Positions 6,651 to 32,015 of a stretch of 32,015 nt of DNA are shown piece after piece. Every line of letters begins with the position of its first letter. The first letter of the stretch is position 1. The DNA is from Alistipes sp. (lineage in GTDB: Bacteria > Bacteroidota > Bacteroidia > Bacteroidales > Rikenellaceae). The translations under genes were made by a program, and so were the position numbers. Location: contig JAFULF010000028.1 of assembly GCA_017483225.1 (NCBI GenBank), forward strand, positions 1-32,015. The letters run 5' to 3'. The notes beneath the pieces were generated by a model. The model had not been told where the DNA came from, did not search any database, and saw only the letters and a program-made list of their open reading frames with translations.

Positions 6651-6666
6651 AGTAAGGAGATAAGAT

Positions 6667-9417: not shown

Positions 9418-9434
9418 CGAGAGGGAGGAGCAAG

Positions 9435-9962: not shown

Positions 9963-9974
9963 AAACTTACGAAT

Positions 9975-11606: not shown

Positions 11607-11613
11607 ACGACGG

Positions 11614-12420: not shown

Positions 12421-12425
12421 TTATT

Positions 12426-15005: not shown

Positions 15006-15027
15006 CCGTTATAAGTAGGGTAGTGCT

Positions 15028-15624: not shown

Positions 15625-15667
15625 TAGCCCGTTCAGCCATCTTTTATCTCAAAAAGTGCATAAAAAT

Positions 15668-15698
15668 TTTGCAGATAAGAAAAAAAGCACTAAATTAG
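15668..15698 (+). promoter_or_regulatory. Promoter of the small HTH gene
   Basis: TTTG (15668-15671), a 19-base spacer, then TAAATTAG (15691-15698, one mismatch to TAnnTTTG). It is the best-matched two-box Bacteroidetes promoter in the window and lies 61 bases before the ATG at 15760, in an AT-rich stretch unlike the flanking coding DNA. Confidence 0.6.
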
Positions 15699-15759
15699 TA
15701 GTGTAAAAAAAGCGAAAATTATCAGTTAATTAAATAATAACACAAAAAACATTACGGCT

Positions 15760-16008
15760 ATGATTATCACATTCAACGAATTGCGCCGCATCAAGGATAG
15801 ACTTCCAAGTGGCAGCTCACAGCGTATTGCAGACGAACTCGGTATCGACGTGGAGAGTGTTCGTAACTATTTTGGCGGAAAGCACTTTGACGCAAAGACC
15901 GGTGTGGGTGTTCACTTTGAGCAGGGCCCTGACGGCGGTGTTGTGACTCTCGACGATACAACCATTTTGGATGCAGCAATGCGTATCTTGAACGAGGAGC
16001 AGAAGTAA
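15760..16008 (+). CDS. Small helix-turn-helix DNA-binding protein
   Basis: 82 residues. The N-terminal half (FNELRRIKDRLPSGSSQRIADELGIDVESVRNYF) has a helix-turn-helix pattern with SQRIADELGI as the first helix and turn and DVESVRNYF as the recognition helix. The C-terminal part is a short strand region (GVVTLDDTTILDAA) ending in a helix. I know similar small proteins to be widespread in Bacteroidetes but of unknown role. It is monocistronic: own promoter upstream, rho-independent terminator 17 bases downstream. That fits an abundant regulator or nucleoid-type protein, but this is inference. Confidence 0.8.
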   Translation: MIITFNELRRIKDRLPSGSSQRIADELGIDVESVRNYFGGKHFDAKTGVGVHFEQGPDGGVVTLDDTTILDAAMRILNEEQK

Positions 16009-16024
16009 GAGTCGCTTTGGTATG

Positions 16025-16064
16025 GAGCCTGACCTGACAACATTGCAGGCAGGCTCTTTTTTTT
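16025..16064 (+). terminator. Rho-independent terminator after the HTH gene
   Basis: GAGCCTGACCTG (16025-16036) pairs with CAGGCAGGCTC (16046-16056), one bulged A, followed by eight T. It closes the small HTH gene 17 bases after its stop. Confidence 0.85.
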
Positions 16065-16102
16065 ATATTTTATATTCGATAACAACCTTAAAACAGAGTA
16101 GG

Positions 16103-17209
16103 ATGAAACGACTGATGTTATTTGTCGCAATGCTGGGATTTGCGCTCAATATTGCGGCTGCCGAGAAGGCGGAGATTAAGTATGTCGATGCACTCTCGCT
16201 TACCCATCTCGGTAAGATGTGCAAGACCACAAACCCTTACCACCGTGTTGAGGTGGATAAATATCCCGAGCTCCTTAAAAAGGAGGCCGACCTGCTGAAA
16301 ATGTCTGCCGGTCAGGCGATACTCTTCGAGACCGATGCCACGGAGATTTGGGTGCAGGCGGAGTATGGCCGCATCGCTTTCAGCCGTGCTATGCCGGAGA
16401 CCGCAGGTGCCGGTTTTAACCTCTATATCGAGCATAACGGCGAATATGTATGGGCAGCGTCGAAGGTCAATAAAGGTGGCCACGATAAGGAGGGAAACTA
16501 CAACCGCAGCAAGCCTCTGCGCCTCATTGCAAATATGGATGGCTCGAAGCATAAGTGCATCCTCTATCTGCCTCTCTTCTCGGAGCTTACATCGTTGAAG
16601 GTGGGTGTTCCGCAGGGCGCAAAACTCAAAGCCTTGAAGAACCCATTCCGTCACAATATTGCAATCTTCGGTTCGAGTTTTACGCACGGCTCGTGCGCAA
16701 CCTGCGCCGGTCAGACATACCCTGCATTCCTCTCTCGCCAGACGGGCCTCTATCTGTGCAGTTTCGGTATGAGCGGCAATAGCAAGTTGCAGCGTGTTAT
16801 GGGTGAGATTTTGGCCGGCACGGGTGCCGATGCCTACATCTGCGACGCCTTCTCCAATCCGACCATCGAGCAGATTGGCGAGCGCATTCGCCCATTCCTG
16901 AATGAGATTCGTGCCAAGAATAAGAAGGCTCCTGTAATCTTCCTGCGCACCATCTACCGTGACGGTCGTCTTTTCGACACCAAGGCAGAGAAGAAGGAGG
17001 CCGACCGTATGGCATACGTGGACGAGTTGATGAAGCAGATTTGCGCCGAGTATGAGGATGTCTATTTCGTTGATGTTAAGGACCAAACGGGCACCGACCT
17101 TATGACCTCGGCCGACGGCATACACCCTTGCTCTTGGGGCTACAAGCGTTGGGCCGATGCTATTCAGGCCGATGTGGTCAGCATCTTGGCAAAGTATGGT
17201 ATAAAGTAG
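16103..17209 (+). CDS. Exported SGNH/GDSL-type hydrolase
   Basis: 368 residues from the ATG at 16103 (MKRLMLFVAMLG), chosen because it gives a signal peptide (cleaved near AAA/EK at about 20); an upstream in-frame ATG at 16022 lies inside the terminator. Residues about 25-175 form an N-terminal beta domain seen in Bacteroidetes SGNH proteins. The hydrolase part begins at about 185 with IFGSSFTHG (block I, Ser192 as nucleophile), a GMSGNS block (223-227) with Gly/Asn of the oxyanion hole, and ends with ADGIHP (D338, H341). Such enzymes remove acyl or acetyl groups from glycans or lipids outside the cytoplasm; the substrate here is unknown. Confidence 0.85.
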   Translation: MKRLMLFVAMLGFALNIAAAEKAEIKYVDALSLTHLGKMCKTTNPYHRVEVDKYPELLKKEADLLKMSAGQAILFETDATEIWVQAEYGRIAFSRAMPETAGAGFNLYIEHNGEYVWAASKVNKGGHDKEGNYNRSKPLRLIANMDGSKHKCILYLPLFSELTSLKVGVPQGAKLKALKNPFRHNIAIFGSSFTHGSCATCAGQTYPAFLSRQTGLYLCSFGMSGNSKLQRVMGEILAGTGADAYICDAFSNPTIEQIGERIRPFLNEIRAKNKKAPVIFLRTIYRDGRLFDTKAEKKEADRMAYVDELMKQICAEYEDVYFVDVKDQTGTDLMTSADGIHPCSWGYKRWADAIQADVVSILAKYGIK

Positions 17210-17230
17210 AGATACATAAAACGGTTTTAC

Positions 17231-17265
17231 TCCCGAATGTCGTTGAGATGTTCGGGATTTTTTTT
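17231..17265 (+). terminator. Rho-independent terminator after the SGNH hydrolase gene
   Basis: TCCCGAA (17231-17237) pairs with TTCGGGA (17251-17257) around a 13-base loop, followed by a run of eight T. It lies 21 bases after the stop. Confidence 0.8.
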
Positions 17266-17371
17266 GTCGCTTTTCTGTCATTTTGTCATATTTTTTGTCG
17301 CAGTGCCTCCCTTTTTGGCATACGGGGTGGCGGTTTTGTTGGTTTTTGGCAGAAAAACAGATTTGGCAAGG

Positions 17372-17396
17372 CGTTTGCTCGATAATGTGGCAAACG
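17372..17396. promoter_or_regulatory. Inverted repeat upstream of dnaK
   Basis: CGTTTGC (17372-17378) and GCAAACG (17390-17396) are perfect reverse complements separated by 11 bases, 64 bases before the dnaK ATG. It is not the CIRCE operator (TTAGCACTC-N9-GAGTGCTAA). It could be an operator site or a hairpin in the leader RNA. Confidence 0.4.
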
Positions 17397-17460
17397 TGAA
17401 AACGAAAACGACGGATAAAAACGGCGAAAACAAATTAAAAACAGATAAAACTTAAAGACT

Positions 17461-19365
17461 ATGGGAAAAATTATTGGTATTGACTTGGGAACCACCAACT
17501 CTTGTGTGGCAGTAATGGAGGGCTCGGAGCCTGTCGTTATCCCTAACTCGGAGGGTCATCGCACCACTCCTTCTGTTGTAGCATTCACCGATGGCGGCGA
17601 GCGCAAGGTCGGCGACCCTGCAAAGCGTCAGGCTATCACCAACCCAAAGCGCACGGTATTCTCTATCAAGCGTTTTATGGGTGAGCAGTACGACAAGGTG
17701 CAGAGCGACATCGCACGTGCTCCATACAGCATCGTTCAGGGTAGCAACAACACCCCTCGTGTAGATATCGACGGCCGTCAATATACGCCGCAGGAGATTT
17801 CGGCAATCATCCTCCAAAAGATGAAGAAGACTGCCGAGGACTATCTGGGTCAGGAGGTTACCGAGGCGGTAATCACCGTGCCTGCATACTTCTCCGACTC
17901 GCAGCGTCAGGCTACCAAGGAGGCGGGCGAGATTGCCGGCTTGAAGGTGCGCCGTATCATCAATGAGCCTACCGCAGCGGCACTCGCTTACGGTATGGAC
18001 AAGAAGAATAAGGATATGAAGATTGCCGTTTATGACCTTGGTGGCGGTACCTTCGATATCTCTATCTTGGAGTTGGGCGACGGCGTGTTCGAGGTGAAAT
18101 CGACCAATGGCGATACCCACCTCGGAGGTGATGACTTCGACCACGTTCTGATTGACTATATGGCCGAGGCGTTCAAGGCGGAGCACGGCGTGGATTTGCG
18201 CCACGACGCTATGGCTTTGCAGCGCTTGAAGGAGGCTGCCGAGAAGGCGAAGATTGAGCTCTCGTCGTCGCAATCGACCGAGATTAACCTTCCGTACATT
18301 ATGCCTATCAACGGCATCCCGCAGCACTTGGTGATGACGCTCACACGTGCCAAGTTCGAGCAGCTCTGCGACCACCTCATCCAGAAGACTATCGAGCCGT
18401 GCAAGATTGCCTTGCGTGATGCAGGACTCTCGGCTTCGCAGATTGACGAGGTTATCCTCGTGGGTGGTTCGACCCGTATTCCGGCTATCCAGAAGATTGT
18501 CGAGGATTTCTTCGGCAAGGCCCCTAACAAGAGCGTAAACCCTGACGAGGTGGTGGCTATCGGTGCCTCTATTCAGGGTGGTGTGCTCACCGGAGAGGTT
18601 AAGGATGTGCTGTTGCTCGACGTTACTCCGCTCTCGCTCGGTATCGAGACCCTGGGTGGCGTGTTCACCAAGCTCATCGAGGCGAACACCACAATCCCTA
18701 CCCGCAAGAGCGAGGTATTCTCCACAGCGGCAGACAACCAGCCGTCGGTAGAGATTAACGTATGCCAGGGCGAGCGTCCGTTGGCGAAGGATAACAAGAG
18801 CATCGGTCGCTTCCACCTCGACGGCATCCCTGCCGCTCCACGTGGTGTGCCACAGATTGAGGTTACTTTCGATATCGACGCTAACGGTATCTTGAACGTG
18901 TCGGCAAAGGATAAGGGTACGGGCAAGGAGCAGAAGATTCGTATCGAGGCTTCGAGCGGCCTTACCGAGCAGGAGATTCAGCGTATGCGTGACGAGGCAA
19001 AGGCCAACGAGGAGAAGGATAAGGTGGAGAAGGAGCGTATCGAGAAGATTAACGCTGCCGACTCCAACATCTTCGCTACCGAGAAGCAGCTCAAAGAGTA
19101 TGGCGACAAGATTCCGGTAGAGAAGAAGTCGGCAATTGAGGGTGCGCTCGCAAAGTTGAAGGAGGCTCACAAGAATGCCGACATCGCCGCTATCGACACC
19201 GCTATTGCCGAGCTCAACACCGCATGGCAGGCAGCATCGCAGGATATCTATGCGCAGCAGCAGGCCGAGCAGGCTCAGCAGGGTGCACAGCAGAACGCAG
19301 GTGCGCAGGGTGGTGCCGAGCAGAAGGCACAGCCTGAGGATGTAGAGTTTGAGGAGGTTAAGTAA
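17461..19365 (+). CDS. dnaK: Chaperone DnaK (Hsp70)
   Basis: 634 residues, full length. The ATPase domain starts at once with [14 protein letters not shown]; further blocks are [28 protein letters not shown] and [11 protein letters not shown]. The linker [14 protein letters not shown] leads into the substrate-binding beta sandwich, then the helical lid, a Gln/Ala-rich disordered stretch and the typical end EEVK. It folds nascent and stressed proteins together with DnaJ and GrpE, whose genes are not in the window. It is monocistronic here: a terminator precedes it and a repeat-borne terminator lies about 300 bases after its stop. A long antisense reading frame over it is the classic dnaK shadow and not a gene. 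Confidence 0.98.
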
Positions 19366-19821: not shown

Positions 19822-19832
19822 CCCCCCCCCCC
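19822..19832. repeat. C11 homopolymer upstream of the SusC promoter
   Basis: Eleven consecutive C, 66 bases before the proposed -33 box. The rest of 19710-19898 holds no recognisable gene or RNA. Confidence 0.8.
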
Positions 19833-19988: not shown

Positions 19989-22900
19989 ATGAGTGATTCT
20001 ACTTTTAAGAACAACGCTGTGATTTCTCGATTGCAGCAATCTCTACGGGGGGGGGTACGCAAGTTTATCCTTGTGATGGCGTGCGTACTGTGTGGAAGTG
20101 TTAGTGCCTATGCACAGGGCCATCTTGTGCAGGGTACAATATCGGGTCAAACCGGTAGTGAAGCACCTCTACCCCTGATTGGTGCCACCGTGTCGATTAA
20201 AAACTCGACCGTTGGTACGACGACCGACATTAACGGTCACTACTCTATCAGCGTTAAGTCGCCGGAGGATGTGCTCGTTTTTGAGTTTATCGGTTACAAG
20301 ACAGAGGAGGCCGTTGTCGGCTCTCGCACAACGATTGACTTCGTGCTCAAAGATGAGTCGCAGAAGATTAGCGAGGTTATCGTTACCGCACTGGGTATCA
20401 CCCGTGAGGAGAAGAGCCTCGGTTATGCCGTGTCGAAGCTCAGCAACGAGGAGTTTACCGCAGCGGAGACAAGCAACTGGCTCAGCGGTCTGAACGGTAA
20501 GGTTGCCGGTCTGAATATGGACACCTCGTCTGCGGGCCCTGCCGGCTCTATGCGTGTGACTCTGCGTGGTGAGGGCTCCCTCTCGCACGACAAGAACACC
20601 GCCCTCTTCGTTGTCGATGGTGTGCCTATCAACTCGGATATGGATGCCAACTCGTCCGGTACCTCCTATGGTGACAACGATGCCCCTATCGACTACGGTA
20701 ATGGTGCCGGCGATATCAACCCTGACGATATCGAGTCGGTGTCGGTGCTGAAAGGCCCATCGGCTACGGCGCTCTATGGTTCCCGTGCTGCCAATGGTGC
20801 TATTATCATCACCACCAAGTCGGGACGTAAGGGCAAGGGCCTCGGTATCCAGTACAGCACAAACATCGTTCTGGATGACCCAAGCTACTGGCCTGACTTC
20901 CAGTACGAGTATGGTGCAGGTAACTGGACATACTCAGGTATCGAGCGAGACGAGACGGGTCTTTATCCTGCCGAGTACTCCTTCTGGACCGTGACCGCCA
21001 ATAAGAGCGATACGGGTAAGAAGGTAGCCCGCTACCACTCTCGTCTTGCCTATGGTGAGAAGATTGAGGGCCAGATGCGCTATATGTACGAGTCGAGAGA
21101 TTGGGATACCGATACATATACTCGTCGTCCATACGTTGTGGAGGATAACTACAAGGACTTCTACCAGACCGGTGTGACTTGGACAAATGCCCTCTCGGTA
21201 GATGCCGGCGATGGCAAGGGCCAGTCGTTGCGTGTGTCGGTGAAGGATGTTCGCAACCGCTGGACTGTCCCTAATACGGGCTACAATACGCAGAGCATCG
21301 GTATCTCGATGTCGAGCAAGAAGAACAAGTGGATTCACGCTCAGGCGAAAATCAACTACTACCGCAAGAACTCGGACAATCTGCCTATCTCGGGTTACAA
21401 CGATTCGTCGCCTTTGAAGTCGTTGATGTGGCTGCCTGTATCGGTAACCGATGCGGGTGTGTATAGCGAGTATGAGAGAGACCTCACGAACAGGTACTAC
21501 GAATTGAACGACGGTACCACAACCCTGATTAACTACCAGAGCGATAACCCGTATTGGATGTGCTACGAGCACCTGAACACCCAGCAGCGTGACCGTATCT
21601 ACGGAAATGTGAGCATCACGGCTAACATTATCCCTAACGAGCTGACGCTCACACTGCGTACCGGTTTGGACTTCAACAACGACTTCCGTACACAGCAGAA
21701 GCCATACTACTCCCGTTCTTATGTTCAGGGTATGTATCGTGAGCAGACCGCTCGTAAGTTGGAGATTAACAACGACTTCCTCTTGGCATATAAGAAGGAC
21801 TTCTCGAATGGTATCTCGCTCAACGCATCCTTCGGTGGTAACAATATGATTTACAGATATTCGAACATCAACCTCAAAGCGAATATGCTCGATGCCAAGA
21901 ATGTCTATATGATTGCTAACACGAAGGGTCAGCTGGCTACCTCGACGGTTCGTCGCAACAAGAGTATCAACTCCTTCTACGGCTTCGTATCCTTCGGCTA
22001 CCGAGATATGTTCTATATCGACGTTACCGGCCGTAACGACTGGTCATCTACGCTGGCCAAGGGCAACAACTCATACTTCTACCCATCGGTAAGTGCGAGT
22101 GTGCTGCTCAGCGAGATTTTCCACTTGCAGCAGAACACCTCGTGGATTAGCCTGCTCAAATTGCGTGGTTCGTGGGCAAACGTGGGTAACGATACCGACC
22201 CTTATCAGATTATCGATACCTATACCGCCAACGCAAGCTTTTCGAGTGCTTATGCGCTCACCGGCTCGCTCAAAAATCCGAACCTCCGTCCGGAGAACGT
22301 AGAGAGCTGGGAGGTTGGTTTGGAGGCCAAACTCTTCAAGGGCATCTGGGGCTTCGACGTAGCCTTCTACGATTCGAGCACCACCGACCAGATTATCTCG
22401 GTGCCAACCGACTGGATTACAGGTGCTTCGAGCACGATGATTAATGCCGGTGAGGTTCGTAACTATGGTGTCGAGTTCTCGACCAACATTCGCCCTGTAA
22501 ATACAAAGGATTGGAAGTTTAACATCTCGCTCAACTGGTCGAAGAACTGGAACTATCTGGTTTCGTTGGCCGAGGGTGTTGATGTATGGCAGCTCAACAG
22601 CAATACCATCGGTAGCCGTGTGCTTGTATATGCTTATCCGGGCCAGCGTCTGGGTCAGATTTACGGTACCGGTTTCCAGCGTGCTCCGGAGGGTGCCTTC
22701 TACTACAACGAGGCCGGCGAGCGTGTCGATTGTTCGAGAGCCGTTATCGTTGATAAGACTACGGGTAACCCACTCCTGAGCGAAGAGCTCACATACGTAG
22801 GTAATATGTATCCGAAGTGGAGAGCGGGTGCCAACTTCAACCTCCGCTGGAAGGACCTCTCACTCTCGATGGCCTTCACCGCATCGTATGGCGGTCGTGC

Positions 22901-23354
22901 ATACTCCCTGACCAACGCAATCCTCTCTTACAACGGTAAGAACAAGAACTCGTTGGAGGGTCGTTACGATGGTCTGATTCACGACGGTGTAAATGCCAAT
23001 CCGGATGGTACCTTCTCGAAGAATACTACCGTTACACAGAGTATCTCCGACTACTGGAACTCTGCTATCTGGCACCGTAACAACGTGGAGTCCAACACCT
23101 TCGACACTTCGTTCTTGAAGTTGAAGGAGTTGCGTTTGGAGTACTCGTTGCCAAAGAAAGTTATCAACAGAACCAAGGGCTTGCAGGGCTTCTCGGTGGC
23201 GTTCTTTATGACTAACGTATTCTGCGTTACCAAGTGGCCACAGTTTGACCCGGAGGTTGCCTCTATCGCAGGTGGCTCGCTCCAAGGTGGTGTCGAGACG
23301 GGTAGCTTCCCTATGAACCGCTCGTATGGTCTTAACATTAAACTCAAATTCTAA
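19989..23354 (+). CDS. SusC/RagA-family TonB-linked outer-membrane transporter
   Basis: 1121 residues. An N-terminal extension of about 22 residues precedes the hydrophobic signal (about 24-42, ends SAYAQ). Then a CarboxypepD-regulatory-like domain (about 47-130), plug domain (about 135-290, with VVDGVPI, IESVSVLKGPSATALYGSRAANGAIIITTK), and a large barrel to the C-terminus. SusC proteins import oligomers captured by their SusD lid, powered by TonB. The susD gene follows after 12 bases. A run of nine G (20047-20055) encodes Arg20-Gly-Gly-Val, ahead of the signal peptide; a one-base slip there would shift the frame. An internal ATG at codon 30 would leave a shortened signal peptide. Substrate is not readable from this protein; neighbours suggest a phosphate ester. 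Confidence 0.93.
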   Translation: MSDSTFKNNAVISRLQQSLRGGVRKFILVMACVLCGSVSAYAQGHLVQGTISGQTGSEAPLPLIGATVSIKNSTVGTTTDINGHYSISVKSPEDVLVFEFIGYKTEEAVVGSRTTIDFVLKDESQKISEVIVTALGITREEKSLGYAVSKLSNEEFTAAETSNWLSGLNGKVAGLNMDTSSAGPAGSMRVTLRGEGSLSHDKNTALFVVDGVPINSDMDANSSGTSYGDNDAPIDYGNGAGDINPDDIESVSVLKGPSATALYGSRAANGAIIITTKSGRKGKGLGIQYSTNIVLDDPSYWPDFQYEYGAGNWTYSGIERDETGLYPAEYSFWTVTANKSDTGKKVARYHSRLAYGEKIEGQMRYMYESRDWDTDTYTRRPYVVEDNYKDFYQTGVTWTNALSVDAGDGKGQSLRVSVKDVRNRWTVPNTGYNTQSIGISMSSKKNKWIHAQAKINYYRKNSDNLPISGYNDSSPLKSLMWLPVSVTDAGVYSEYERDLTNRYYELNDGTTTLINYQSDNPYWMCYEHLNTQQRDRIYGNVSITANIIPNELTLTLRTGLDFNNDFRTQQKPYYSRSYVQGMYREQTARKLEINNDFLLAYKKDFSNGISLNASFGGNNMIYRYSNINLKANMLDAKNVYMIANTKGQLATSTVRRNKSINSFYGFVSFGYRDMFYIDVTGRNDWSSTLAKGNNSYFYPSVSASVLLSEIFHLQQNTSWISLLKLRGSWANVGNDTDPYQIIDTYTANASFSSAYALTGSLKNPNLRPENVESWEVGLEAKLFKGIWGFDVAFYDSSTTDQIISVPTDWITGASSTMINAGEVRNYGVEFSTNIRPVNTKDWKFNISLNWSKNWNYLVSLAEGVDVWQLNSNTIGSRVLVYAYPGQRLGQIYGTGFQRAPEGAFYYNEAGERVDCSRAVIVDKTTGNPLLSEELTYVGNMYPKWRAGANFNLRWKDLSLSMAFTASYGGRAYSLTNAILSYNGKNKNSLEGRYDGLIHDGVNANPDGTFSKNTTVTQSISDYWNSAIWHRNNVESNTFDTSFLKLKELRLEYSLPKKVINRTKGLQGFSVAFFMTNVFCVTKWPQFDPEVASIAGGSLQGGVETGSFPMNRSYGLNIKLKF
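20047..20055 (+). repeat. G9 homopolymer inside the SusC coding region
   Basis: Nine consecutive G spanning codons 20-23 of the SusC gene, in frame as written (CGG GGG GGG GTA). Tracts of this length are prone to slipped-strand mispairing in bacteria, and the position before the signal peptide would make any one-base change an off state. Confidence 0.85.
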
Positions 23355-23366
23355 CAGGCATAAATT

Positions 23367-24881
23367 ATGAAAACGATTAAAAATTATCTATTGCTCATAG
23401 GTTTGTGCTTGATTGTAGGTTCATCTTGCACATCCAACTTTGAAGAGATTAACAAGAACCCTAACCAGCCGGAGTATGGCGAAATCAACCCTGCTAACTT
23501 GTTGCAGGTCTTGACGATGAATGCCAGCGACCGTTGGTTGATACATACCTATACACTCAACGGTGAGTTGATTCAGTACACCGTGTCGGGTACAAGCAAC
23601 AACGCCTACCACCGTTTTGTTATTCCTAACACTACGACTGCCGGCTCGTGGAACTGGTACGCCCGTATGGCGGCTACTGCCGACGAGATGGAGCGCTTGG
23701 CTATCAAGCGTGGAGATGTGAACTGTGAGGCTATCGCCATCACGTTGAAGGTTATGTTTATGTCGAACCTCACCGACTGCTTCGGAGATGTTCCATACTC
23801 GGAGGCCTTCGGAAACATCAATGGCACGAAGATTAACAAGCCAAAGTTCGACAAGCAGCGTGATATCTACGAGAAGTTGTACGAGCAGTTGGAGTATGCC
23901 AACACGCTCTACAATACGGATGCCGCATTCGACTCCTCTCGTGACCTGCTCTACAATGGAGATATCTCGAAGTGGAGAAAGTTCAACAACTCGCTCTACC
24001 TGCGTCTGCTTATGCGTCTGAGCAACCGTGACAAGGAGTTCGCCGTAAGCAAGAAGATTCAGGAGATTTACCTCAATCGTACCAAGTACCCTGTATTTGA
24101 GAGCAACGACGATAACGCTACGCTTCACTTTGATGAGGTTGAGCCATTCGTAAACTACTACGGCTCATATACGCAGGCGGCTTTCGGCTCCTCTTCACGT
24201 AAGGCTTGTGCTACGATGATTAAGATGATGCTTGGTCCGGGTGACCCGCGTCTTCCAATCTACTATACACAGAGTGGAGGTGCTTGGGAGGGCCGTGTGA
24301 GCGGTCTGCCTAATGCCGAGCTTGAAACAGAGGGTAAAATCGCATACCTTAATTATGAAACGCTGGGACGCTATCAGTCGCCTGTATCGTTTATGAAGTA
24401 CGACGAGGTGATGTTTATCTTCTGCGAGGCTATCTGGCGTGGCTGGATTCCGGGAGGTGAGACTCTTGGCGAGCAGTATTATCTCGATGGAATTAAGTCT
24501 TCGATTGCATATTGGAGCAGCATCGACCCTGCGGGTACGGATATTACCGAGCTGACTATCAATCGTTTCCTGAACAAGTCGCCTTATAGTCACGAGTTGG
24601 AGACTATTATGAACCAGAAGTACATTGCACTCTTCTGGACAGGCTACGAGGCATGGCACGAGTATCGTCGTACAGGTTTCCCATCACTCCCTATCGGAGC
24701 GGCAACCAGCAACGACCATATTCTTCCACGCCGTTTCTGCTATCCTGACAACACCTCCATTACCAACCCAGACAACTATGCAGAGGCTTGTGCCCGCTTG
24801 CAGAAGGATTATTATGGCGGTGACGATATGAAGACTCCTGTATGGTGGGGAAAGAACGCCATTGAAAGAGGTATTGAGTAG
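23367..24881 (+). CDS. SusD/RagB-family surface lipoprotein
   Basis: 504 residues. Lipoprotein signal with the lipid cysteine C21 (VGSSC), then TSNFEEINKNPNQP, the usual start of the SusD-like subfamily that begins NFEEINxNPN. The body is the helical TPR-like fold (GDVPYSEAF, YEKLYEQLEYANTLY, WRKFNNSLYLRLLMRLS) and the C-terminal RR-type end with LPRRFCYPD. SusD proteins form the lid on the SusC barrel and bind the substrate outside the cell. It is 12 bases after susC. The acidic residues after C21 fit export to the outer leaflet. Confidence 0.93.
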   Translation: MKTIKNYLLLIGLCLIVGSSCTSNFEEINKNPNQPEYGEINPANLLQVLTMNASDRWLIHTYTLNGELIQYTVSGTSNNAYHRFVIPNTTTAGSWNWYARMAATADEMERLAIKRGDVNCEAIAITLKVMFMSNLTDCFGDVPYSEAFGNINGTKINKPKFDKQRDIYEKLYEQLEYANTLYNTDAAFDSSRDLLYNGDISKWRKFNNSLYLRLLMRLSNRDKEFAVSKKIQEIYLNRTKYPVFESNDDNATLHFDEVEPFVNYYGSYTQAAFGSSSRKACATMIKMMLGPGDPRLPIYYTQSGGAWEGRVSGLPNAELETEGKIAYLNYETLGRYQSPVSFMKYDEVMFIFCEAIWRGWIPGGETLGEQYYLDGIKSSIAYWSSIDPAGTDITELTINRFLNKSPYSHELETIMNQKYIALFWTGYEAWHEYRRTGFPSLPIGAATSNDHILPRRFCYPDNTSITNPDNYAEACARLQKDYYGGDDMKTPVWWGKNAIERGIE

Positions 24882-24905
24882 TAATTCTAATACTGTATTG
24901 AGAAT

Positions 24906-27017
24906 ATGAGACATATATTATATTATATAGAAAAAAGCCTCTCTCTCTTGACAATCTCTGCGGTACTTCTGTTTGCTGCCTGCCAGCAGCCGGAGGAGGG
25001 TGCCACAGGTACAGACATCAAGGTTTATCAGGTTGTTGATGGTCAGGAGGTCGCTTTGGAGGAGATTGACTCCTCGCTGAGCGGACAGCTTTACGACTTC
25101 GTTATCTACTCCAATATCGGAGAGTGGGAGTTGAAGCCTACCTTCGAGGAGGATAACGAGTGGTGTCGAGCTTGGCCGGCATCGGGCAAGAATGACGCAC
25201 GTGTCGCTATCAAGGTCTTCGAGAATAAGACGGCATACCCTCGTACCTGCGAGATGAATGTTGTCTCTCGTGGTCAGGTTGTTGCGACAATCACCTTTAA
25301 TCAGACGGCTAACCTTCCGTATATGGACTTCTCGTATGACTATCCGGATGATACCAAGATTGTGAACGAGTTTGGCGAGAAGGTTAGGATTCGTATCGAC
25401 TCTAACGTAGAGTGGAAGGCGGAGCTTACCTACGATACCGGCTGGTTGCACCTTGGCGAGAAGACCTCCGAGTATCAGGAGTTGATTATTGATGGCAACG
25501 ATATGGACGAGAGCCGAGTAGCATCGGTTAAGTTCCGTGCCATCGGTACCGAAATCGACCACCTGCTCTATATCAGTCAGGGCACCTCGGCCGAGTTTGA
25601 GTCTGCCACCAAGTGGACCATCCAGAATGTCCTGAGCACCTTGGAGGATGGCGAAGGCGGTATCTCTGACAACATCTACGTTGAGGGTTATGTCATCAGC
25701 GATTACACATCGGGCAACTTCAACGCACGACAGATGGTTATTATGGATGAGAGCAATGCCGGTATGTGCGTTGAGTTTGAGGATGAGTACTCGAACATCT
25801 ATCCTCTGAACACGAAGGTAACCATCCACCTGAAAGACCTCGCATTTGTCTCCGATAGCGATGTTGTCGGCCCTACCGACGGCACCTTCGGCAGCAAGAT
25901 TGCCGGTCTGCCAAGCTCACGTATCAAGTTCTCGGAGCCATCGGCAGGTATCGACCCTATCGAGGTGGAGTCGGGTGTCGATTTGTATCGCTACGAGCAC
26001 TGCCTCGTTACGTTGAAGGGCGTTGAGTACGCTGCTCCTTATGGAACATACTGCAATGTAAATGAGGATTTTAGCTGCGATTATAGCAATATCGATGGTC
26101 TGGGTACCGCATACGACTACTCGAAGTCGCATATGTACACCACGTTTGGTCACGAGTACGTGCATCTGTTGCGTGATTCACGAGATAACATCGTAGAGCT
26201 CTACACGCTCCGCAATGCTACCTTCCGTGCTGCCCGTATGATTCCGGAGGGCTCGGGTGATATCACGGGTGTTGTGATGCACCGAGTTAAGGATGGCGAG
26301 AGCATCTACCATATCCGTATGCGTAATTTGGAGGATGACCAGACCTCGGATGACCCTGAGACTCGTCGTGCCAAGCCTATATTGAAGATTGGCCCTTGGG
26401 TGGCGAAGAAGGGCTTGGATAAGCTTAGCGCATCGGTAGGTACCGGTACTCTCAACACCTCGTTTACGAAGGGTAATGCCGTGCTCGGTTCGTCGAGTGT
26501 TGCAATCTACTTGGCAGACTCCTTCACTCGTTGTGTGCCGGCAACTTATAATAGTGATAATGGCAAGTGGTATCCGCTCTATGCTACTGCGGAGGGTGTT
26601 ACATACTGGTCTATGCGAGCACTCAACTGGTGGGATAACAACTACAACCGTATCACCGATTATCAGGGTGTTGCGTGGGTTGTCAATACCACTACTGCCG
26701 GTGTTGAGGGCAAGCTCTCGCTCGAATTTGCAATGTGCAGTTCGGGTGGTGGCCCTCGTCCGTTTATGGTTGAGTTCGCCGATAGTGAGGATGCTCCAAG
26801 CAGCGAGTGGACTCAGGTTGAGGAGATTATCTCTCCAAACTCTTCGGTGTCGTATAGTTTCAAACTCTACACAATCGACCTCCCTGCCGGATGTAACGAT
26901 AAGCAAAACCTTGCTATTCGTCTGCGAGTACCAAGGGATGAGCGTGCTAGTACAGCAAGTGCTACGACAGACACCGGTAACAACTCGATTGGTTTTGTTC
27001 GTTTAAGTTGCAGATAA
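24906..27017 (+). CDS. Surface lipoprotein with BACON-like modules and a DUF5689-type domain
   Basis: 703 residues. Lipobox LFAAC with C26, followed by QQPEE, typical of surface-exported lipoproteins. Two BACON-like beta sandwiches lie at about 50-130 and 135-225 (NIGEWELKP..., SNVEWKAELTYDTGWLHLG). Residues about 230-480 match the DUF5689 pattern (WTIQNVLSTL, YVEGYVISDYTSGNF, QMVIMDESNAGMCVEF), an OB-like domain found beside nucleases and phosphatases in Bacteroidetes. The end (about 485-703) is a predicted jelly-roll. No catalytic motif seen. It follows susD by 24 bases and precedes the phosphoesterase by 11. A substrate-binding role at the surface is inferred. Confidence 0.75.
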   Translation: MRHILYYIEKSLSLLTISAVLLFAACQQPEEGATGTDIKVYQVVDGQEVALEEIDSSLSGQLYDFVIYSNIGEWELKPTFEEDNEWCRAWPASGKNDARVAIKVFENKTAYPRTCEMNVVSRGQVVATITFNQTANLPYMDFSYDYPDDTKIVNEFGEKVRIRIDSNVEWKAELTYDTGWLHLGEKTSEYQELIIDGNDMDESRVASVKFRAIGTEIDHLLYISQGTSAEFESATKWTIQNVLSTLEDGEGGISDNIYVEGYVISDYTSGNFNARQMVIMDESNAGMCVEFEDEYSNIYPLNTKVTIHLKDLAFVSDSDVVGPTDGTFGSKIAGLPSSRIKFSEPSAGIDPIEVESGVDLYRYEHCLVTLKGVEYAAPYGTYCNVNEDFSCDYSNIDGLGTAYDYSKSHMYTTFGHEYVHLLRDSRDNIVELYTLRNATFRAARMIPEGSGDITGVVMHRVKDGESIYHIRMRNLEDDQTSDDPETRRAKPILKIGPWVAKKGLDKLSASVGTGTLNTSFTKGNAVLGSSSVAIYLADSFTRCVPATYNSDNGKWYPLYATAEGVTYWSMRALNWWDNNYNRITDYQGVAWVVNTTTAGVEGKLSLEFAMCSSGGGPRPFMVEFADSEDAPSSEWTQVEEIISPNSSVSYSFKLYTIDLPAGCNDKQNLAIRLRVPRDERASTASATTDTGNNSIGFVRLSCR

Positions 27018-27028
27018 AATAGAATACT

Positions 27029-29035
27029 ATGAAAAATATAAGCAGATTTTTACTTTTGCTTGCGACCATTGCTGCTGTATGCGTTGGTTGTAATGCAGGC
27101 GATGATGCTCCTGAGTATCAGTATCAATCTCGCCTTGTAAAGCAGGCTTTTCTCAATAGCGAGATAACCATTTACGATGGCAAGGAGATTGAGATTCAGG
27201 GTATCGGCTTCGTCGTTGGCGATAAGGTCATCTTCCGTACTGCGGAGGGTGACTACACCGCCACTATCACATACGTAGAGGATACTTCGGCTATCTTCCT
27301 TGCTCCTGATATGCCGCAGGGAGTCTATACTCTCTACATCGGTCGAGGCGAGAAGACCCAGAAGGTCGCAAACATCACCGTATGGACTACACTCTCTGTC
27401 GAGATTCCTGAGAAGGATGGTTGCTCGTTGAGAGGTATCGTCTATACTCAGGTCAAGGATGCAACTTCCGGCGAAGAGGTTCAGATGACCAATGTAGGCG
27501 TCGAAGGTGTTTGGGTGTCGGATGGTGTCAATTTTACACAGACCGACGAGAACGGTTACTATTGGTTGGAGTCCGACAAACGCTTCGGATATGTATTTGT
27601 TTGTCTTCCAAGCGGTTATCTGCCGGCTACGGGAAGCAATGCCGTTCCGGGCTTCTGGAAGGCGGTATCTATCGACCCGCACCTCTCGGAGCAGTGTAAC
27701 TTCGAGTTGAAGGCTTCCGATACTACCGATCATCAGGTATTCTTTGCTACCGACCTCCACTTGGCGAACAGAAGTGTTGGCGACAATGCAATCAATGACC
27801 TGACGATGTTTAGAGAGGGCTTCATTAAGGATTCCAAGGCTCTGGCAGAGATCTATGGCTCTAATACGTTCCTCGTTACTATGGGTGACCTTACGTGGGA
27901 TGCTCACTGGTACAAGACGTCATTTATGCCGGAGCAGTATGTCAAGGAGATGAAGGATTACCCGCTGGTGACCTTCAACGGTATGGGTAACCACGACAAC
28001 AACCCTTACGTTCAGGGCGATAACCTCGGCTCGAAGATATATCGTACCACGATTGCGCCTACCTACTACTCGTTTGATTTGGGTAATGTTCACTACATCA
28101 TCCTCGACGATATCGAGTGGATTAACACGAACGGTACCAACGGCTTTGTTGGCGAGCGTAACTACTACGAGCGTGTTGATGATACTCAGTTGGCGTGGTT
28201 GCAGGAGGATTTGTCGCACGTTGCCGACAAGAACAACCCTGTCGTTGTTTGCTCTCACTCGCAGCTCTATGCTAACTGGAATGCCAATCGTAACCCGACC
28301 AAGTATTTGCAGAATGCAGATAAGGTGCTGGATTGCTTCAATGGCTTCTCGAATGTTCACTTTATGACGGGCCACGCACACTACAATATGACTATGGAGT
28401 TGCGTGATAACGTCATCGAGCACAACGTGGGCGCTATCTGCGAGACTTGGTGGCAGAGTTCGGCCGCTTCGATGCTCGATGGTCGTGGTATCAACCGTGA
28501 CGGTACCCCTGCGGGTTACTCTGTCTTCGAGTTCAAGGGTGGCGACTTGAAGTGGTACTATAAGTCTATCGGCTTCGATAAGTCGTTGCAGTTCCGTGCA
28601 TACGATATGAACAACGTTCTACAAACAGCCAAGCGTTGGGATACCTACCTCAGCAAGCAGACCGAGCAGGAGCGAGAGAACGACGGAGTAGACTACAAGG
28701 ATTTGGATGATAACGTCATCTATATCAACGTTTGGGACTACGACTCGAAGTGGAAGATTGAGGTTTGGGAGGATGGTACTCCTCTGACTGTGACACGCAC
28801 CTTCGACCGTGACCCACTCCACACCCTCACTACCGATTTGCCACTTGCTAAGTCGGGCAACCTGGTTGCCAGCAACGCATCTACCAAGACTCCGCATATG
28901 TGGATGGTTACAACCAAGGAGGATGATACCGATATTTCTATCAAGGTTACCAACCGCTTTGGCGAGGAGTTTACCCACGAGATGACGGGCCGTAAGAAGC
29001 GTAATAGTTTCGAAATCTCCACATATATTAAGTAA
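27029..29035 (+). CDS. Lipoprotein calcineurin-like phosphoesterase
   Basis: 668 residues. Lipid cysteine C21 (VCVGC) then NAGDD, a surface-export signal. Residues about 35-130 look like an IPT/TIG immunoglobulin-like domain (GIGFVVGDKVIF, GVYTLYIGRG). About 140-235 is the MetallophosN-type beta domain, 236-490 the catalytic domain with D242-L-H244, MGD, GNHD (320-323), a CSH motif and GHAH (448-451), and about 500-668 the MetallophosC-type domain. All metal ligands are present, so it should be an active phosphomono- or diesterase. It is the only recognisable enzyme in the SusCD operon, so the imported compound probably carries a phosphate ester (nucleotide, nucleic acid, phospho-glycan or similar). 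Compared with the periplasmic paralogue at 9975-11606 it adds the lipid anchor and IPT domain. Confidence 0.88.
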   Translation: MKNISRFLLLLATIAAVCVGCNAGDDAPEYQYQSRLVKQAFLNSEITIYDGKEIEIQGIGFVVGDKVIFRTAEGDYTATITYVEDTSAIFLAPDMPQGVYTLYIGRGEKTQKVANITVWTTLSVEIPEKDGCSLRGIVYTQVKDATSGEEVQMTNVGVEGVWVSDGVNFTQTDENGYYWLESDKRFGYVFVCLPSGYLPATGSNAVPGFWKAVSIDPHLSEQCNFELKASDTTDHQVFFATDLHLANRSVGDNAINDLTMFREGFIKDSKALAEIYGSNTFLVTMGDLTWDAHWYKTSFMPEQYVKEMKDYPLVTFNGMGNHDNNPYVQGDNLGSKIYRTTIAPTYYSFDLGNVHYIILDDIEWINTNGTNGFVGERNYYERVDDTQLAWLQEDLSHVADKNNPVVVCSHSQLYANWNANRNPTKYLQNADKVLDCFNGFSNVHFMTGHAHYNMTMELRDNVIEHNVGAICETWWQSSAASMLDGRGINRDGTPAGYSVFEFKGGDLKWYYKSIGFDKSLQFRAYDMNNVLQTAKRWDTYLSKQTEQERENDGVDYKDLDDNVIYINVWDYDSKWKIEVWEDGTPLTVTRTFDRDPLHTLTTDLPLAKSGNLVASNASTKTPHMWMVTTKEDDTDISIKVTNRFGEEFTHEMTGRKKRNSFEISTYIK

Positions 29036-29054
29036 TCCTTAAACGAAGATTGCT

Positions 29055-30578
29055 ATGAAAAAGATATTTAATATATTTATTGCGATGCTTGCACTCGTTG
29101 CTGTTGGTTGCGAAACCGGAGCCGACGATATGGTTTACGAGGTGAGCAGTGACCGTGTCACTATCGAGGCTAACCGCCGAGGTATTGACAGCAATGGCGG
29201 TCAGATTATTCTCAACGTGACATCCTCTACCTATTGGATTCTCAACGTTGATGAGGCTACTGCTTCGTGGGTAGAGTTCACTCCGAAGGCTGCCGGTGCG
29301 GGTACTACCGAGGTCTTTGTGACCGTTAAGGAGAACGAGGGCGAGGCACGTGTTGCGCAGCTGATGTTCGACACGCAGGTCGGAGTCAAGGAGACCGTTA
29401 CCATCAACCAGCGAGGCTCGGATGAGATGTTGTCCTACTACTGCGAGACCTTCGGTGAGGAGGCTGTTGCGGAGGATACCAATATCAACCGTTTCGATGG
29501 CTGGTGTACGACAGGTTTCGGCTCTAATGTCCTTGTTTACGATGGCGACCTCTCCATCTCGGCTACTAACCCTTCGACTATCGAGGGCTCCTCGGCCGGT
29601 AACTCGCTCTACTTTGGCGAGGAGGGCTTGGAGCTTGTTGTCGGCCCAATCAGCATCTATGGCGACGAGTTCTTCCGTTTCAGCTTCAACGCTTGTAACC
29701 GTAATGGCGCCGTTTCCGATGCGGAGTTCAAGATGTATGCCGGCGACAATGGCGACGATTGGTTCCCATTCTCATACACCGTTGTTGAGCCTGCCGAGAG
29801 TGGCTGGGTGAAGGTCAATGCCGACTTCTCGTTGAAGAAGGATATTGCCACCAATATCTATCTTAAACTTACCGCTCCTGCGGGCTATGAGATTGACGAT
29901 ATCGTGCTCGTTCAGGGCTTGAAGGAGGATAATGCTCCTATGGCACGTGTGTCGATGGACTCAAACCCTATCGGTACCGTCTTCTTCGAGGATGACCTGA
30001 ATTGGATTACACCATCGTTCTCTAATACTATTGATGCCGAGATTCCATTTGCTAACGGATGGTCTGTATGTAATATGAATATGCAGAGCAACGCTTTGGT
30101 TCCACAGGCGAGCAAAGACCTCTGGTTGTCGAAGCGTTATACCACCCCTGTTGATAAGGGCGAGAGAACGTGGAATTATGCATACGTAGAGGTGGATTCA
30201 AATGGCGATGGCCACTTCAAGATTGGCCGTGCATCGCAGAGCAACGCTCGTAACCATACGGGTGAGTTCTACCTGCCTGAGGGTATCCTCTCGAAGATTG
30301 ACCAGGATGCGAGAATTAGCGTATTGTTCTCGCTCGATGTTGCTCGTTTCAATACCGGCGACTGCAACCTTCTCTACGTTACGGCTCATACTCCGGGTCA
30401 GGATATCGACGAGAAGGAGATTGCTGCCGATATCAGCGCAGTGAAGGTCTTCGGTACATTCGAGGTTAGCTTCGATAACGTAACTCGTGACACCACCTTC
30501 TCCATCAAGACGAAGGTGCAGACCGATGCACGCTCTATCCGTCTGGCATTCGATAACTTTAAGATTACAAAACTTTAA
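29055..30578 (+). CDS. Surface lipoprotein with BACON domain and two beta-sandwich modules
   Basis: 507 residues. Lipid cysteine C19 (VAVGC) then ETGADD. A BACON domain at about 30-125 ends in VGVKETVTINQRG. Two modules follow, each beginning with an aromatic-acidic start (YYCETFGEE at about 130 and VFFEDDLNWI at about 312) and rich in short strands, resembling galactose-binding-like or jelly-roll folds. No catalytic motif. BACON domains are thought to hold enzymes or binding modules at a distance from the membrane. It is the last gene of the SusC operon, 19 bases after the phosphoesterase, and is followed by two hairpins. A surface glycan- or ligand-binding role is inferred. Confidence 0.75.
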   Translation: MKKIFNIFIAMLALVAVGCETGADDMVYEVSSDRVTIEANRRGIDSNGGQIILNVTSSTYWILNVDEATASWVEFTPKAAGAGTTEVFVTVKENEGEARVAQLMFDTQVGVKETVTINQRGSDEMLSYYCETFGEEAVAEDTNINRFDGWCTTGFGSNVLVYDGDLSISATNPSTIEGSSAGNSLYFGEEGLELVVGPISIYGDEFFRFSFNACNRNGAVSDAEFKMYAGDNGDDWFPFSYTVVEPAESGWVKVNADFSLKKDIATNIYLKLTAPAGYEIDDIVLVQGLKEDNAPMARVSMDSNPIGTVFFEDDLNWITPSFSNTIDAEIPFANGWSVCNMNMQSNALVPQASKDLWLSKRYTTPVDKGERTWNYAYVEVDSNGDGHFKIGRASQSNARNHTGEFYLPEGILSKIDQDARISVLFSLDVARFNTGDCNLLYVTAHTPGQDIDEKEIAADISAVKVFGTFEVSFDNVTRDTTFSIKTKVQTDARSIRLAFDNFKITKL

Positions 30579-30677: not shown

Positions 30678-30713
30678 AAAATACCCCTCCCGAGATTCGG
30701 GGGGGGGTATTTT
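30678..30713. terminator. Terminator between the SusC operon and the fimbrillin-like locus
   Basis: AAAATACCCC plus TCCCG (30678-30692) pairs with the segment 30698-30713, which contains nine G followed by TATTTT. The A-rich and T-rich outer ends make it a likely bidirectional terminator. The G9 tract (30699-30707) forms one strand of the stem. Confidence 0.7.
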
Positions 30714-30778: not shown

Positions 30779-30916
30779 ATGAGAAAAATTGATTTCTTTG
30801 GAGCCTACACGGCTCCGCAGGTTAGAGTCTGCAACATCCGCATCGAGAGCGGCTTTGTACTCTCTGGCCCAACCGATTTTGAGGATCCGGATTTGGAAGT
30901 ACGTCCGGAGGAGTAA
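30779..30916 (+). CDS. 45-residue small protein upstream of a fimbrillin-like gene
   Basis: The ATG at 30779 opens 45 codons ending in TAA at 30914-30916. The product begins MRKIDFFGAYTAPQVRV, has CNIRIESGFVLSG in the middle, and ends acidic and Pro-rich (FEDPDLEVRPEE). It has no signal peptide and no membrane segment. I know short proteins of this style (M-K/R-x-I/Y...AP...E.G...SG) to occur next to fimbrillin-type genes in Bacteroidales, but I know no function. It lies after a terminator and 29 bases before the fimbrillin-like gene, so the two probably share a transcript. A chance frame is possible, but the codon usage fits its neighbours. Confidence 0.65.
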   Translation: MRKIDFFGAYTAPQVRVCNIRIESGFVLSGPTDFEDPDLEVRPEE

Positions 30917-30945: not shown

Positions 30946-32015
30946 ATGAAGAAAATTATGATGCTCGCAGCTGCTGTCGCAATGTTGGCAGGCTGCTCAA
31001 ATGATTTGACCTCGGACCTTGACCCAACAGTCAGCGGTTCGGGCAACACCGGCTCTTGGAGCGGTGAGGGTATTATCGTAGAGGCTGTTGCCGAGGATGT
31101 TACCCGTGTAGATACGAATGTTTCGAGCTCGGAGAGCTACCTCACTTGGGAGGTTGGCGATGAGCTTACCCTCGTACACGGCGGTGCCGCTTACGTGTAC
31201 TTGGCACAGCAGGCAGGCCGTACCTCGACCTTCTTGCCAAAGGACGATGCCAACGCACTTACCGCAGTTGATGCTACGGCACCTGTTGCAGCGTTCTATA
31301 ACGTTGCCAGCGTCGATGCTGCTACCTGCAAGGCAACCTTCAACGTTGCAGCCGAGCAGACCGAGGGCACACTGAACAACAAGTTGCCACTCTACGCTTA
31401 TGCCGCTACTACCGTTGTTGAGGATGGCAAGGTTGTGGTTACAATGAAGCCACTCGCTTCGGTTGTTGAGTTCGAGTTGTCGGCATCGAGCACGTGGAAT
31501 GCCGATGCACTCTCGCTCGGCAAGTCTTCCCGCCAGCTCTACACCTACGCTTCGGCCGAGGGCCTTGTTGTTGATGCCGCTACGGGCGCTATCGACCTTT
31601 CGGCCGCTACGGTAGGCACTACTGTTAAGGTAAACCTTTCGGCGATGCACGACTTTGCAACCAAGCGCAACGTGTCTGTTGTCGTACCGGGCGTATGCAA
31701 CGACGTTACAGTTGAGACTACCGAGGGTGAGGGCGATGCAGCGGTTACTACTACCACAACAACCCACCACGCCCCTGTATATCAGGGCAAGGCTTGCGTA
31801 AAGCTCTATAAGAATGGTGTTGAGAACTTCCGCCGCACTATCTGGGTATCCCAGACAGCTGATGGCACGAAGGAGGTTGACGAGCGCAAGCACGTATATC
31901 AGCCGTTGAAGGATATCCTCGATGGCCACAAGAACGGTATCTCTACCGCCGCCGACTTGAAGGCTTTGGCCGACGAGGTAAACTACTCTGTTGAGACTTA
32001 CCCTTGCGGTACCGG
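30946..32015 (+). CDS. Fimbrillin-like lipoprotein (3' end outside window)
   Basis: At least 356 codons, open to the last base of the window. Signal peptide with lipobox MLAGC (C17), then SNDLTSDLD, as in fimbrial and surface lipoproteins of Bacteroidales. The first domain has the fimbrillin-type pattern: an Arg/Ser-rich strand, then YLTWEVGDELTLVHGG (about 66-81), the usual entry to the Mfa/FimA beta sandwich, a loop of alternating strands, and VVTMKPLASVVEFELSA (about 163-180), the second typical strand block. A threonine run before two histidines (about 266-273) marks the passage to a C-terminal part that is still incomplete. Fimbrillins form cell-surface filaments by donor-strand exchange after lipid maturation. 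Whether it is shaft, anchor or tip cannot be said while the end is missing. Confidence 0.7.
   Translation, partial: MKKIMMLAAAVAMLAGCSNDLTSDLDPTVSGSGNTGSWSGEGIIVEAVAEDVTRVDTNVSSSESYLTWEVGDELTLVHGGAAYVYLAQQAGRTSTFLPKDDANALTAVDATAPVAAFYNVASVDAATCKATFNVAAEQTEGTLNNKLPLYAYAATTVVEDGKVVVTMKPLASVVEFELSASSTWNADALSLGKSSRQLYTYASAEGLVVDAATGAIDLSAATVGTTVKVNLSAMHDFATKRNVSVVVPGVCNDVTVETTEGEGDAAVTTTTTTHHAPVYQGKACVKLYKNGVENFRRTIWVSQTADGTKEVDERKHVYQPLKDILDGHKNGISTAADLKALADEVNYSVETYPCGT

Follow-up and report, generated by a model that had tools for sequence, protein, structure and literature searches.

A SusCD operon with a predicted surface phosphoesterase in Alistipes, a candidate phosphoester-utilisation locus

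SusCD systems are usually interpreted as glycan importers, and Sus-like polysaccharide utilisation loci place SusC, SusD and surface lipoproteins together in one operon. Excerpts of a study of Flavobacterium describe phosphate utilisation systems (PUS), loci that pair SusCD with phosphomono- or phosphodiesterases and whose expression is induced when phosphate is low (PMC8115612). Two further systems involve nucleic acids: Izemoplasmatales genomes with several secreted nucleases are interpreted as DNA specialists in excerpts of PMC8289736, while excerpts of PMC8459023 report that a DUF5689 protein of Riemerella is essential for natural transformation, with DNA binding by DUF5689 being that paper's model rather than a measurement.

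Gene content of the Alistipes operon

The window, by which we mean the whole analysed stretch of 32,015 nucleotides, is an entire contig (G000:C19) of a 1.86-Mb Alistipes genome and carries the following features:

19989..23354, + strand: SusC, TonB-linked outer-membrane transporter, 1121 aa (TIGR04056, 603.9 bits; also TIGR04057, Plug and CarbopepD_reg_2).
23367..24881, + strand: SusD-like_2 lipoprotein, 504 aa (PF12771, 316.4 bits; its PDB relatives are SusD homologues).
24906..27017, + strand: lipoprotein with BACON and DUF5689, 703 aa, putative surface binder (PF18942, 74.7 bits; BACON, 26.1 bits; lipobox FAAC).
27029..29035, + strand: calcineurin-like phosphoesterase with MetallophosN and MetallophosC, 668 aa, predicted lipoprotein with Cys21 (PF16370, 139.6 bits; PF16371, 66 bits).
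29055..30578, + strand: BACON lipoprotein with beta-sandwich-like modules, 507 aa, putative surface binder (BACON, 23.6 bits).
30678..30713, + strand: terminator-like hairpin 3' of gene 5 (scan; folding z-score -4.4).
30779..30916, + strand: small ORF of 45 aa upstream of the GLUG gene (ORF reading).
30946..32013, + strand: 5' part of a GLUG-type lipoprotein gene, truncated at the contig end (identity to L026:12681-15776).

An earlier note on this DNA described five closely spaced genes with gaps of 11-24 bases, and all five ORFs lie where it placed them, with intergenic gaps of 12, 24, 11 and 19 bases. Family matches likewise agree with its identification of SusC, SusD, a BACON/DUF5689 lipoprotein, a phosphoesterase and a BACON lipoprotein, the last with a score slightly under the BACON cut-off of 25 bits; the sister-group homologues of this fifth protein are longer. 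Its statement that glycoside hydrolases, lyases and sulfatases are missing is borne out by Pfam and NCBIfam scans, which found no glycosidase, lyase, sulfatase or other CAZyme domain in the five operon proteins, and Pfam found no CAZyme or sulfatase domain in the partial sixth protein. We also rejected a glycosidase hidden in the large BACON/GLUG genes, as Pfam on those scanned returned BACON, GLUG, lipoprotein-signal and weak fn3, SusE or MAM matches. No nuclease gene lies within the window operon, and Rfam gave no match on the window at gathering scores.

Downstream, the partial GLUG gene is 79% identical over 356 aa to its L026 counterpart, whose protein has the GLUG motif, and ORF starts resembling the 45-aa ORF were seen by eye 3' of gene 5 in L026 and L027. 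No hairpin comparable to that of the window was found in the 66-81 bases tested 3' of gene 5 in L026, L027 and L030. A common promoter motif was considered and set aside, the sequences 5' of the operon aligning poorly among five type A loci.

The phosphoesterase encoded by gene 4 has MetallophosN and MetallophosC flanking a core whose metal ligands are intact, as in enzymes of the MetallophosN/C type, and no PF00149 match reaches E 0.001. Nine ligand positions, D242, H244, D287, N321, H322, D323, H410, H449 and H451, are present there and in all nine aligned relatives, as the earlier note had read them in this protein, and the lipoprotein Cys21 is invariant in 10/10 aligned homologues. An AlphaFold2 model (pLDDT 75, pTM 0.77) matches the folds of GpdQ, wheat phytase, Lmo2642 and purple acid phosphatases with Z scores of 19.2 to 18.2, and its top Foldseek match is SMPDL3A. 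Since these best matches are spread within about one Z unit, the modelled fold favours no single substrate, and we discarded substrate assignment on this basis.

Related loci and their enzyme neighbours

The gene-order search in relatives that the earlier note proposed found the same five-gene order in five close Alistipes loci, and its conservation at 69% phosphoesterase identity rules out a chance grouping. In the sister group, an S1/P1 nuclease gene (PF02265) with intact ligands lies directly downstream in 5/5 loci at a gap of 11-35 bases, a count that represents fewer independent cases because L032 and L036 are almost identical. One of these S1/P1-bearing loci, L034, belongs to Alistipes montrealensis strain kh20. 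Trees of SusC, SusD and the phosphoesterase all join the window to this group (99/99, 97/94 and 100/99, respectively), while the nuclease itself is absent from the window operon and from the other type A loci.

A paralogous operon type, also present in this genome, adjoins a DNA/RNA endonuclease in five of the six loci with enough sequence, and a second such operon in the genome itself also lies beside one. More distantly related, the type C loci L033, L092 and L127 are arranged as GlpD-GlpT-(GDPD or second phosphoesterase)-phosphoesterase-SusCD, in which GlpT of L033 passes the NCBIfam cut-off of 632.55 at 652 and those of L092 and L127 fall below it. The neighbours of orthologous and paralogous operons, namely S1/P1 nuclease, DNA/RNA endonuclease or glycerophosphodiester genes, thus lend good support to the earlier suggestion that the locus takes up a phosphate-ester compound, and the range of substrates it listed can be reduced, nucleic-acid fragments ranking first.

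Within a phylum-wide sample of 296 genomes, a search with the A1 profile recovered only this genome at E 1e-150, and within an order-level sample it recovered at least 5/295 genomes at E 1e-140, this genome counted; both counts are lower bounds because at most four candidates were scored per genome.

Candidate substrates

We favour, with modest confidence, the reading that the operon is a phosphoester-utilisation locus whose most likely substrates are nucleic-acid fragments (oligonucleotides or nucleotides) captured at the surface and imported. The S1/P1 association and the trees suggest this, as do the endonuclease neighbour, the role of DUF5689 in Riemerella and the gene content of the genome as a whole. 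The genome has 11 S1/P1 genes, compared with at most three in each of the 295 other genomes of the phylum-wide sample, as well as 16 MetallophosC genes, and 3/11 S1/P1 genes follow a DeoD-type phosphorylase gene. Across 61 genomes of the genus, phosphoesterase and S1/P1 counts are correlated (rho 0.84, uncorrected for ancestry, against 0.40 for a SusD_RagB control), with exceptions in G045 (5 phosphoesterase and 1 S1/P1 genes), G049 (3 and 8) and G058 (2 and 9). Weighing against nucleic acids are the nuclease-free type A operons, the GlpT/GlpD and phosphodiester-glycosidase neighbours of relatives, the unspecific fold of the phosphoesterase and the type B and C loci, where the lipoproteins scanned contain no DUF5689.

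From this evidence we infer a route in which location, substrate, transport and each catalytic step are all predicted. The DUF5689 and BACON lipoproteins would bind the polymer or pieces of it, the phosphoesterase would trim phosphate esters at the surface, and the SusD lid and SusC would move the product across the outer membrane. Periplasmic S1/P1 nucleases, whose genes lie inside the operon in the sister species and elsewhere in this genome, could then cut the product towards nucleosides and phosphate, with the DeoD-type phosphorylase acting on the resulting nucleosides.

A broader proposal, which we advance only tentatively, is that such loci are the nucleic-acid counterpart of polysaccharide utilisation loci in a phosphodiester-specialised gut Alistipes lineage, and that their DUF5689 lipoproteins bind nucleic acids at the surface, a component they would have in common with the natural-transformation machinery of Bacteroidota. 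The genome encodes three DUF5689 genes besides that of the operon; one lies after nuclease genes, and no nuclease was identified among the few scanned neighbours of the other two. Sequence comparison of DUF5689 with the PDB gave nothing convincing, and we make no claim of an OB-like fold for the domain. If nucleic-acid import is correct, a substrate can be predicted for a class of SusCD loci that lack CAZymes, there is a named candidate route by which DNA and RNA from host, food and microbes are turned over in the gut, and DUF5689 gains a testable role.

The main rival, because more distant relatives adjoin GlpT/GlpD, is import of glycerophosphodiesters, either head groups of phospholipids or fragments of poly(glycerol phosphate) teichoic acid, from which the phosphoesterase would free glycerol-3-phosphate or the head group. 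The GlpD-GlpT arrangement of type C, six GDPD matches in the genome and the presence of GpdQ, a glycerophosphodiesterase, among the best matches of the modelled fold are consistent with it. However, type C is more distant (its SusC is 44-46% identical to that of the window, compared with 60% in the S1/P1 group), and neither glp genes nor GDPD were found among the genes of type A and A' operons, leaving this explanation unlikely.

Less probable still is a general organic-phosphate scavenger like PUS, induced by phosphate starvation and indifferent to the compound, with phytate and sugar phosphates among its substrates. Most SusCD pairs are selective, the nuclease partner of the sister loci suggests a polymer, and Pfam scans of the window proteins (part of the ORFs) showed no sigma/anti-sigma gene, against which stand the Flavobacterium loci and, in the modelled fold comparison, a plant phytase and purple acid phosphatases among the best matches.

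Removal of phosphate or phosphodiester decorations at a glycan or peptidoglycan-related locus is improbable. Glycan loci commonly contain BACON lipoproteins and SusCD, L126 has the same phosphoesterase family beside a phosphodiester glycosidase, and in L041 of this genome an alpha-galactosidase and a SusD_RagB/SusC pair lie close to two MetallophosC genes. Yet the genes of type A and A' operons that were scanned or matched include no glycan enzyme, and the genome has only four SusD_RagB genes.

Comparison with described systems

Set against polysaccharide utilisation loci, the Alistipes operon has the SusCD pair and lacks the CAZyme or sulfatase (at least one) by which such loci are defined. 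In the Riemerella pair RA0C_RS04915/RA0C_RS04920, a surface protein with DUF5689 is likewise found next to an outer-membrane protein, but there the partner is of CarboxypepD_reg type and the outcome is transformation, where Alistipes has SusC/SusD and a phosphoesterase (PMC8459023, excerpts). Izemoplasmatales DNA-degradation loci co-localise nucleic-acid-degrading genes, with no SusD or TonB mentioned in the excerpts of PMC8289736, whereas the Alistipes operon itself has no nuclease. Among the openly licensed PMC papers that literature searches listed, none has a title or abstract opening describing a SusCD operon that includes an S1/P1 nuclease or DUF5689.

The earlier note knew of no described system with exactly this gene set, which holds only in part, since Flavobacterium PUSI and PUSII, like the Alistipes operon, cluster SusCD with phosphoesterases and no CAZymes. 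According to the same excerpts (PMC8115612), PUSI has a PF00149-type enzyme (Table 1), PusD1/PusD2 belong to PF07980/PF14322 where the Alistipes SusD belongs to PF12771, and the PUSI/PUSII phosphoesterases are predicted to be periplasmic where the Alistipes enzyme is a predicted lipoprotein. PUS also has sigma or FecR regulators, none of which was seen in the window proteins scanned, and the excerpts name neither DUF5689 nor a BACON lipoprotein, both of which the Alistipes operon encodes. The pairing of SusCD and a phosphoesterase therefore has its published precedent in Flavobacterium PUS, and the Alistipes operon is a new variant rather than a new category.

The five-gene operon and its closest relatives

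The source genome, Alistipes sp., amounts to 1.86 Mb in 42 contigs, of which the window is one complete contig (C19). The five-gene set of the earlier note is borne out, with the expected families at 19989-30578 separated by gaps of, in order, 12, 24, 11 and 19 bases, and the phosphoesterase metal ligands it called intact are so at all nine positions checked, in the window and in nine aligned relatives.

19989-30578: operon of five genes encoding SusC, SusD-like_2, a BACON+DUF5689 lipoprotein, a MetallophosN/C calcineurin-like phosphoesterase and a BACON lipoprotein (genes 1 to 5)
30678-30713: terminator-like hairpin, downstream of gene 5
downstream of gene 5, between hairpin and GLUG gene: 45-aa ORF
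running off the contig end: GLUG lipoprotein gene, first 356 codons present, remainder beyond the end

Given the hairpin, ORF and partial GLUG gene that follow gene 5, genes 1 to 5 may make up one full transcript. The GLUG neighbour had been overlooked because the gene is truncated at the contig end.

The window phosphoesterase is best matched in metagenome-assembled genomes titled Alistipes sp., with sources in the cecum of goat and roe deer and in the rectum and colon of dairy cattle, and in an uncultured Alistipes bin. The earlier note had suggested searching relatives for the same gene order, and we found it in five close Alistipes loci, termed type A (L026, L027, L028, L029, L030), with phosphoesterases 69% identical to that of the window; L028, a short contig, displays four of the five genes. 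A GLUG gene lies downstream in all four loci whose contigs are long enough. Loci L083, L084, L085, L086 and L088 repeat the gene layouts and lengths of contig of L030, L027, L028, L034 and L031, and each pair was counted once.

Two homopolymer runs lie near susC, 11 C upstream (19822-19832) and 9 G in its start region (20047-20055), and phase variation through them is possible; neither is kept in L026, L027, L029 or L030. Across about 392 kb of the source genome there are 18 distinct runs of at least 8, after merging one listed twice from overlapping sequence, two of them intragenic. Elsewhere in the window, another MetallophosN/C phosphoesterase (9975-11606), which shows no evident lipobox, is flanked by shikimate kinase and Asp/Glu racemase genes, and a TonB-dependent receptor-like gene adjoins a heavy-metal-associated (HMA) domain gene (221-2932, both on the minus strand).

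Nucleases and phosphodiester genes beside related operons

Type A joins a sister group, A' (L031, L032, L034, L036), in the SusC, SusD and phosphoesterase trees with support of 99/99, 97/94 and 100/99, respectively. An S1/P1 nuclease gene begins 11-35 bases after the BACON gene in five of five sister loci (these four and L087), which hold fewer independent cases because L032 and L036 are nearly identical. The assignment draws on PF02265 for L032 (6e-29) and L034 (1.5e-31), on PF02265 matches in the genus search for L031 and L087, and on phmmer for L036. Visual inspection finds a signal peptide on the nuclease and no lipobox; its zinc-ligand residues, under the ligand numbering assumed, align with those of solved S1/P1 nucleases, and all nine are kept in all five proteins. 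A further locus, L089, which both the SusD tree and the phosphoesterase tree put on the side of type A, carries an fn3 protein at the position of the A' nuclease.

Paralogous type B operons, including a second one in the source genome (L040), run SusC, SusD, small BACON, phosphoesterase, large BACON, and near them lie a carrier weakly resembling NhaC/DcuC and a DNA/RNA non-specific endonuclease. The endonuclease is found within a few genes in five of the six loci with sufficient downstream sequence (L035, L040, L091, L093, L094, L096; Pfam for L040 and L091, phmmer for the others), on the opposite strand in L093 and absent near the operon in L094; L095 and L097 are cut off and fall outside this count.

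More distant type C loci combine GlpD, GlpT, a GDPD or second phosphoesterase, a phosphoesterase, SusC and SusD in variable order.

L033 (Tannerella): 4780-19169
L092: 2838-18999
L127: 6204-18978

GlpD was assigned by Pfam in L033 and by phmmer in L092 and L127, and GlpT exceeds the NCBIfam cut-off only in L033. By gene content, type C loci read as candidates for glycerophosphodiester or teichoic-acid use. L090 carries SusCD and two phosphoesterases, with no GlpT within the stretch taken. For the window operon, glycerophosphodiesters are the main alternative substrate, though an unlikely one.

From the nuclease, endonuclease and Glp/GDPD neighbours of types A', B and C, we conclude that the whole operon family is linked to phosphodiesters, with a nuclease as the partner in the type closest to the window. 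Separately, L126 (6870-13856) holds a row of amidohydrolase, phosphodiester glycosidase (NAGPA), MetallophosC phosphoesterase homologue, alkaline phosphatase and glycerate kinase genes.

Gene-family counts and DUF5689

The source genome holds 16 MetallophosC genes (17 search rows, one gene accounting for two), 11 S1/P1, 3 Endonuclease_NS and 4 SusD_RagB genes (E 1e-10). Zinc ligands have been lost from two of the 11 S1/P1 copies (one copy was read without its first residues), and a DeoD-type purine-nucleoside phosphorylase gene precedes three. In a phylum-wide sample, which scored 8 candidates of the source genome, the other 295 genomes have at most three S1/P1 matches each, and 128 of all 296 have none.

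Within the genus, phosphoesterase counts (search profile A1, E 1e-40, scoring limited to 20 candidates per genome) correlate with S1/P1 counts at rho 0.84 over 61 genomes and 0.90 among the 27 whose completeness is 90% or more, against 0.40 and 0.21 for the control of SusD_RagB with phosphoesterase, all with shared ancestry left in. Exceptions are G045 (5 phosphoesterase, 1 S1/P1), G049 (3, 8) and G058 (2, 9). Type A genomes that both surveys cover (G000, G003, G006, G037) carry 9-12 S1/P1 genes, all outside the operon; the A' genomes G032, G053 and G054 carry 2, 2 and 5, including one within the operon.

Tandem S1/P1 arrays mix copies keeping all nine zinc ligands with copies that have lost several (L118:7847-17129 on G057:C37; L110:8718-9563; L112:7832-8635; L115:8063-8896). 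The L118 array has five intact copies (8641, 10603, 12234, 14722, 16317) separated by ligand-loss copies (7847, 9794, 11428, 13897, 15542); a further gene, at 13063, shows a weak Pfam match only and is outside the ligand table. In the source genome, three tandem MetallophosC genes (L037:3913-14470, contig C4) adjoin a ribulokinase (NF003154, 545.7 bits, cut-off 428), a pair of FAD oxidoreductases and an Exo_endo_phos gene, a conceivable pathway for phosphates of ribitol or ribose; similar triples occur in G003, G006, G028, G029 and G037. MetallophosC domains also lie inside very long proteins of about 1,190 to 2,220 aa on source contigs C7, C18, C28 and C41 (L044, L042, L039, L046).

DUF5689 is detected by Pfam in the window protein, L026, L034 and L089, and is absent by Pfam from the scanned lipoproteins of L033, L035 and L040. 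Three further DUF5689 genes occur in the source genome: that on C2 follows Endonuclease_NS, Exo_endo_phos_3 and CarboxypepD_reg genes in one run (L051:2566-10018); among the minority of neighbours scanned around those on C16 and C18, none directly adjacent was identified as a nuclease. By domain only, the DUF5689 and CarboxypepD_reg genes of L051 recall a Riemerella pair in which markerless deletion showed that natural transformation requires the DUF5689 protein and also the CarboxypepD_reg protein encoded beside it, DNA binding by the former being the authors' model (PMC8459023).

Proposed function and known systems

Acidic residues after the lipoprotein cysteine act as an export signal. Because this cysteine is invariant and has acidic residues after it in gene 4 (10 of 10 aligned sequences, read by eye), the phosphoesterase is predicted to be surface-placed. 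Its structure model has a calcineurin-like core best matched by GpdQ, wheat phytase, Lmo2642 and purple acid phosphatases, and Foldseek ranks SMPDL3A first at a low TM-score; the model supports a phosphoesterase and singles out no substrate. General phosphate scavenging by the window operon seems improbable, and phosphoglycans as its substrate very doubtful.

Of the candidate substrates, we favour nucleic-acid fragments, as somewhat more likely than not. In the proposed mechanism, the gene 3 and gene 5 lipoproteins would bind such fragments, the gene 4 enzyme would trim phosphate esters at the cell surface, SusCD would import the trimmed product, and periplasmic S1/P1 enzymes would finish it.

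The earlier note knew of no described system with this gene set. Our literature search, over PMC papers under open licence, likewise found no paper describing a window-type operon; the kind of system is already known, since Flavobacterium PUS loci also pair SusCD with a phosphoesterase (PMC8115612). Compared with PUS loci as described there, the window operon differs in its gene set, SusD family, lipoprotein enzyme and link to a nuclease.
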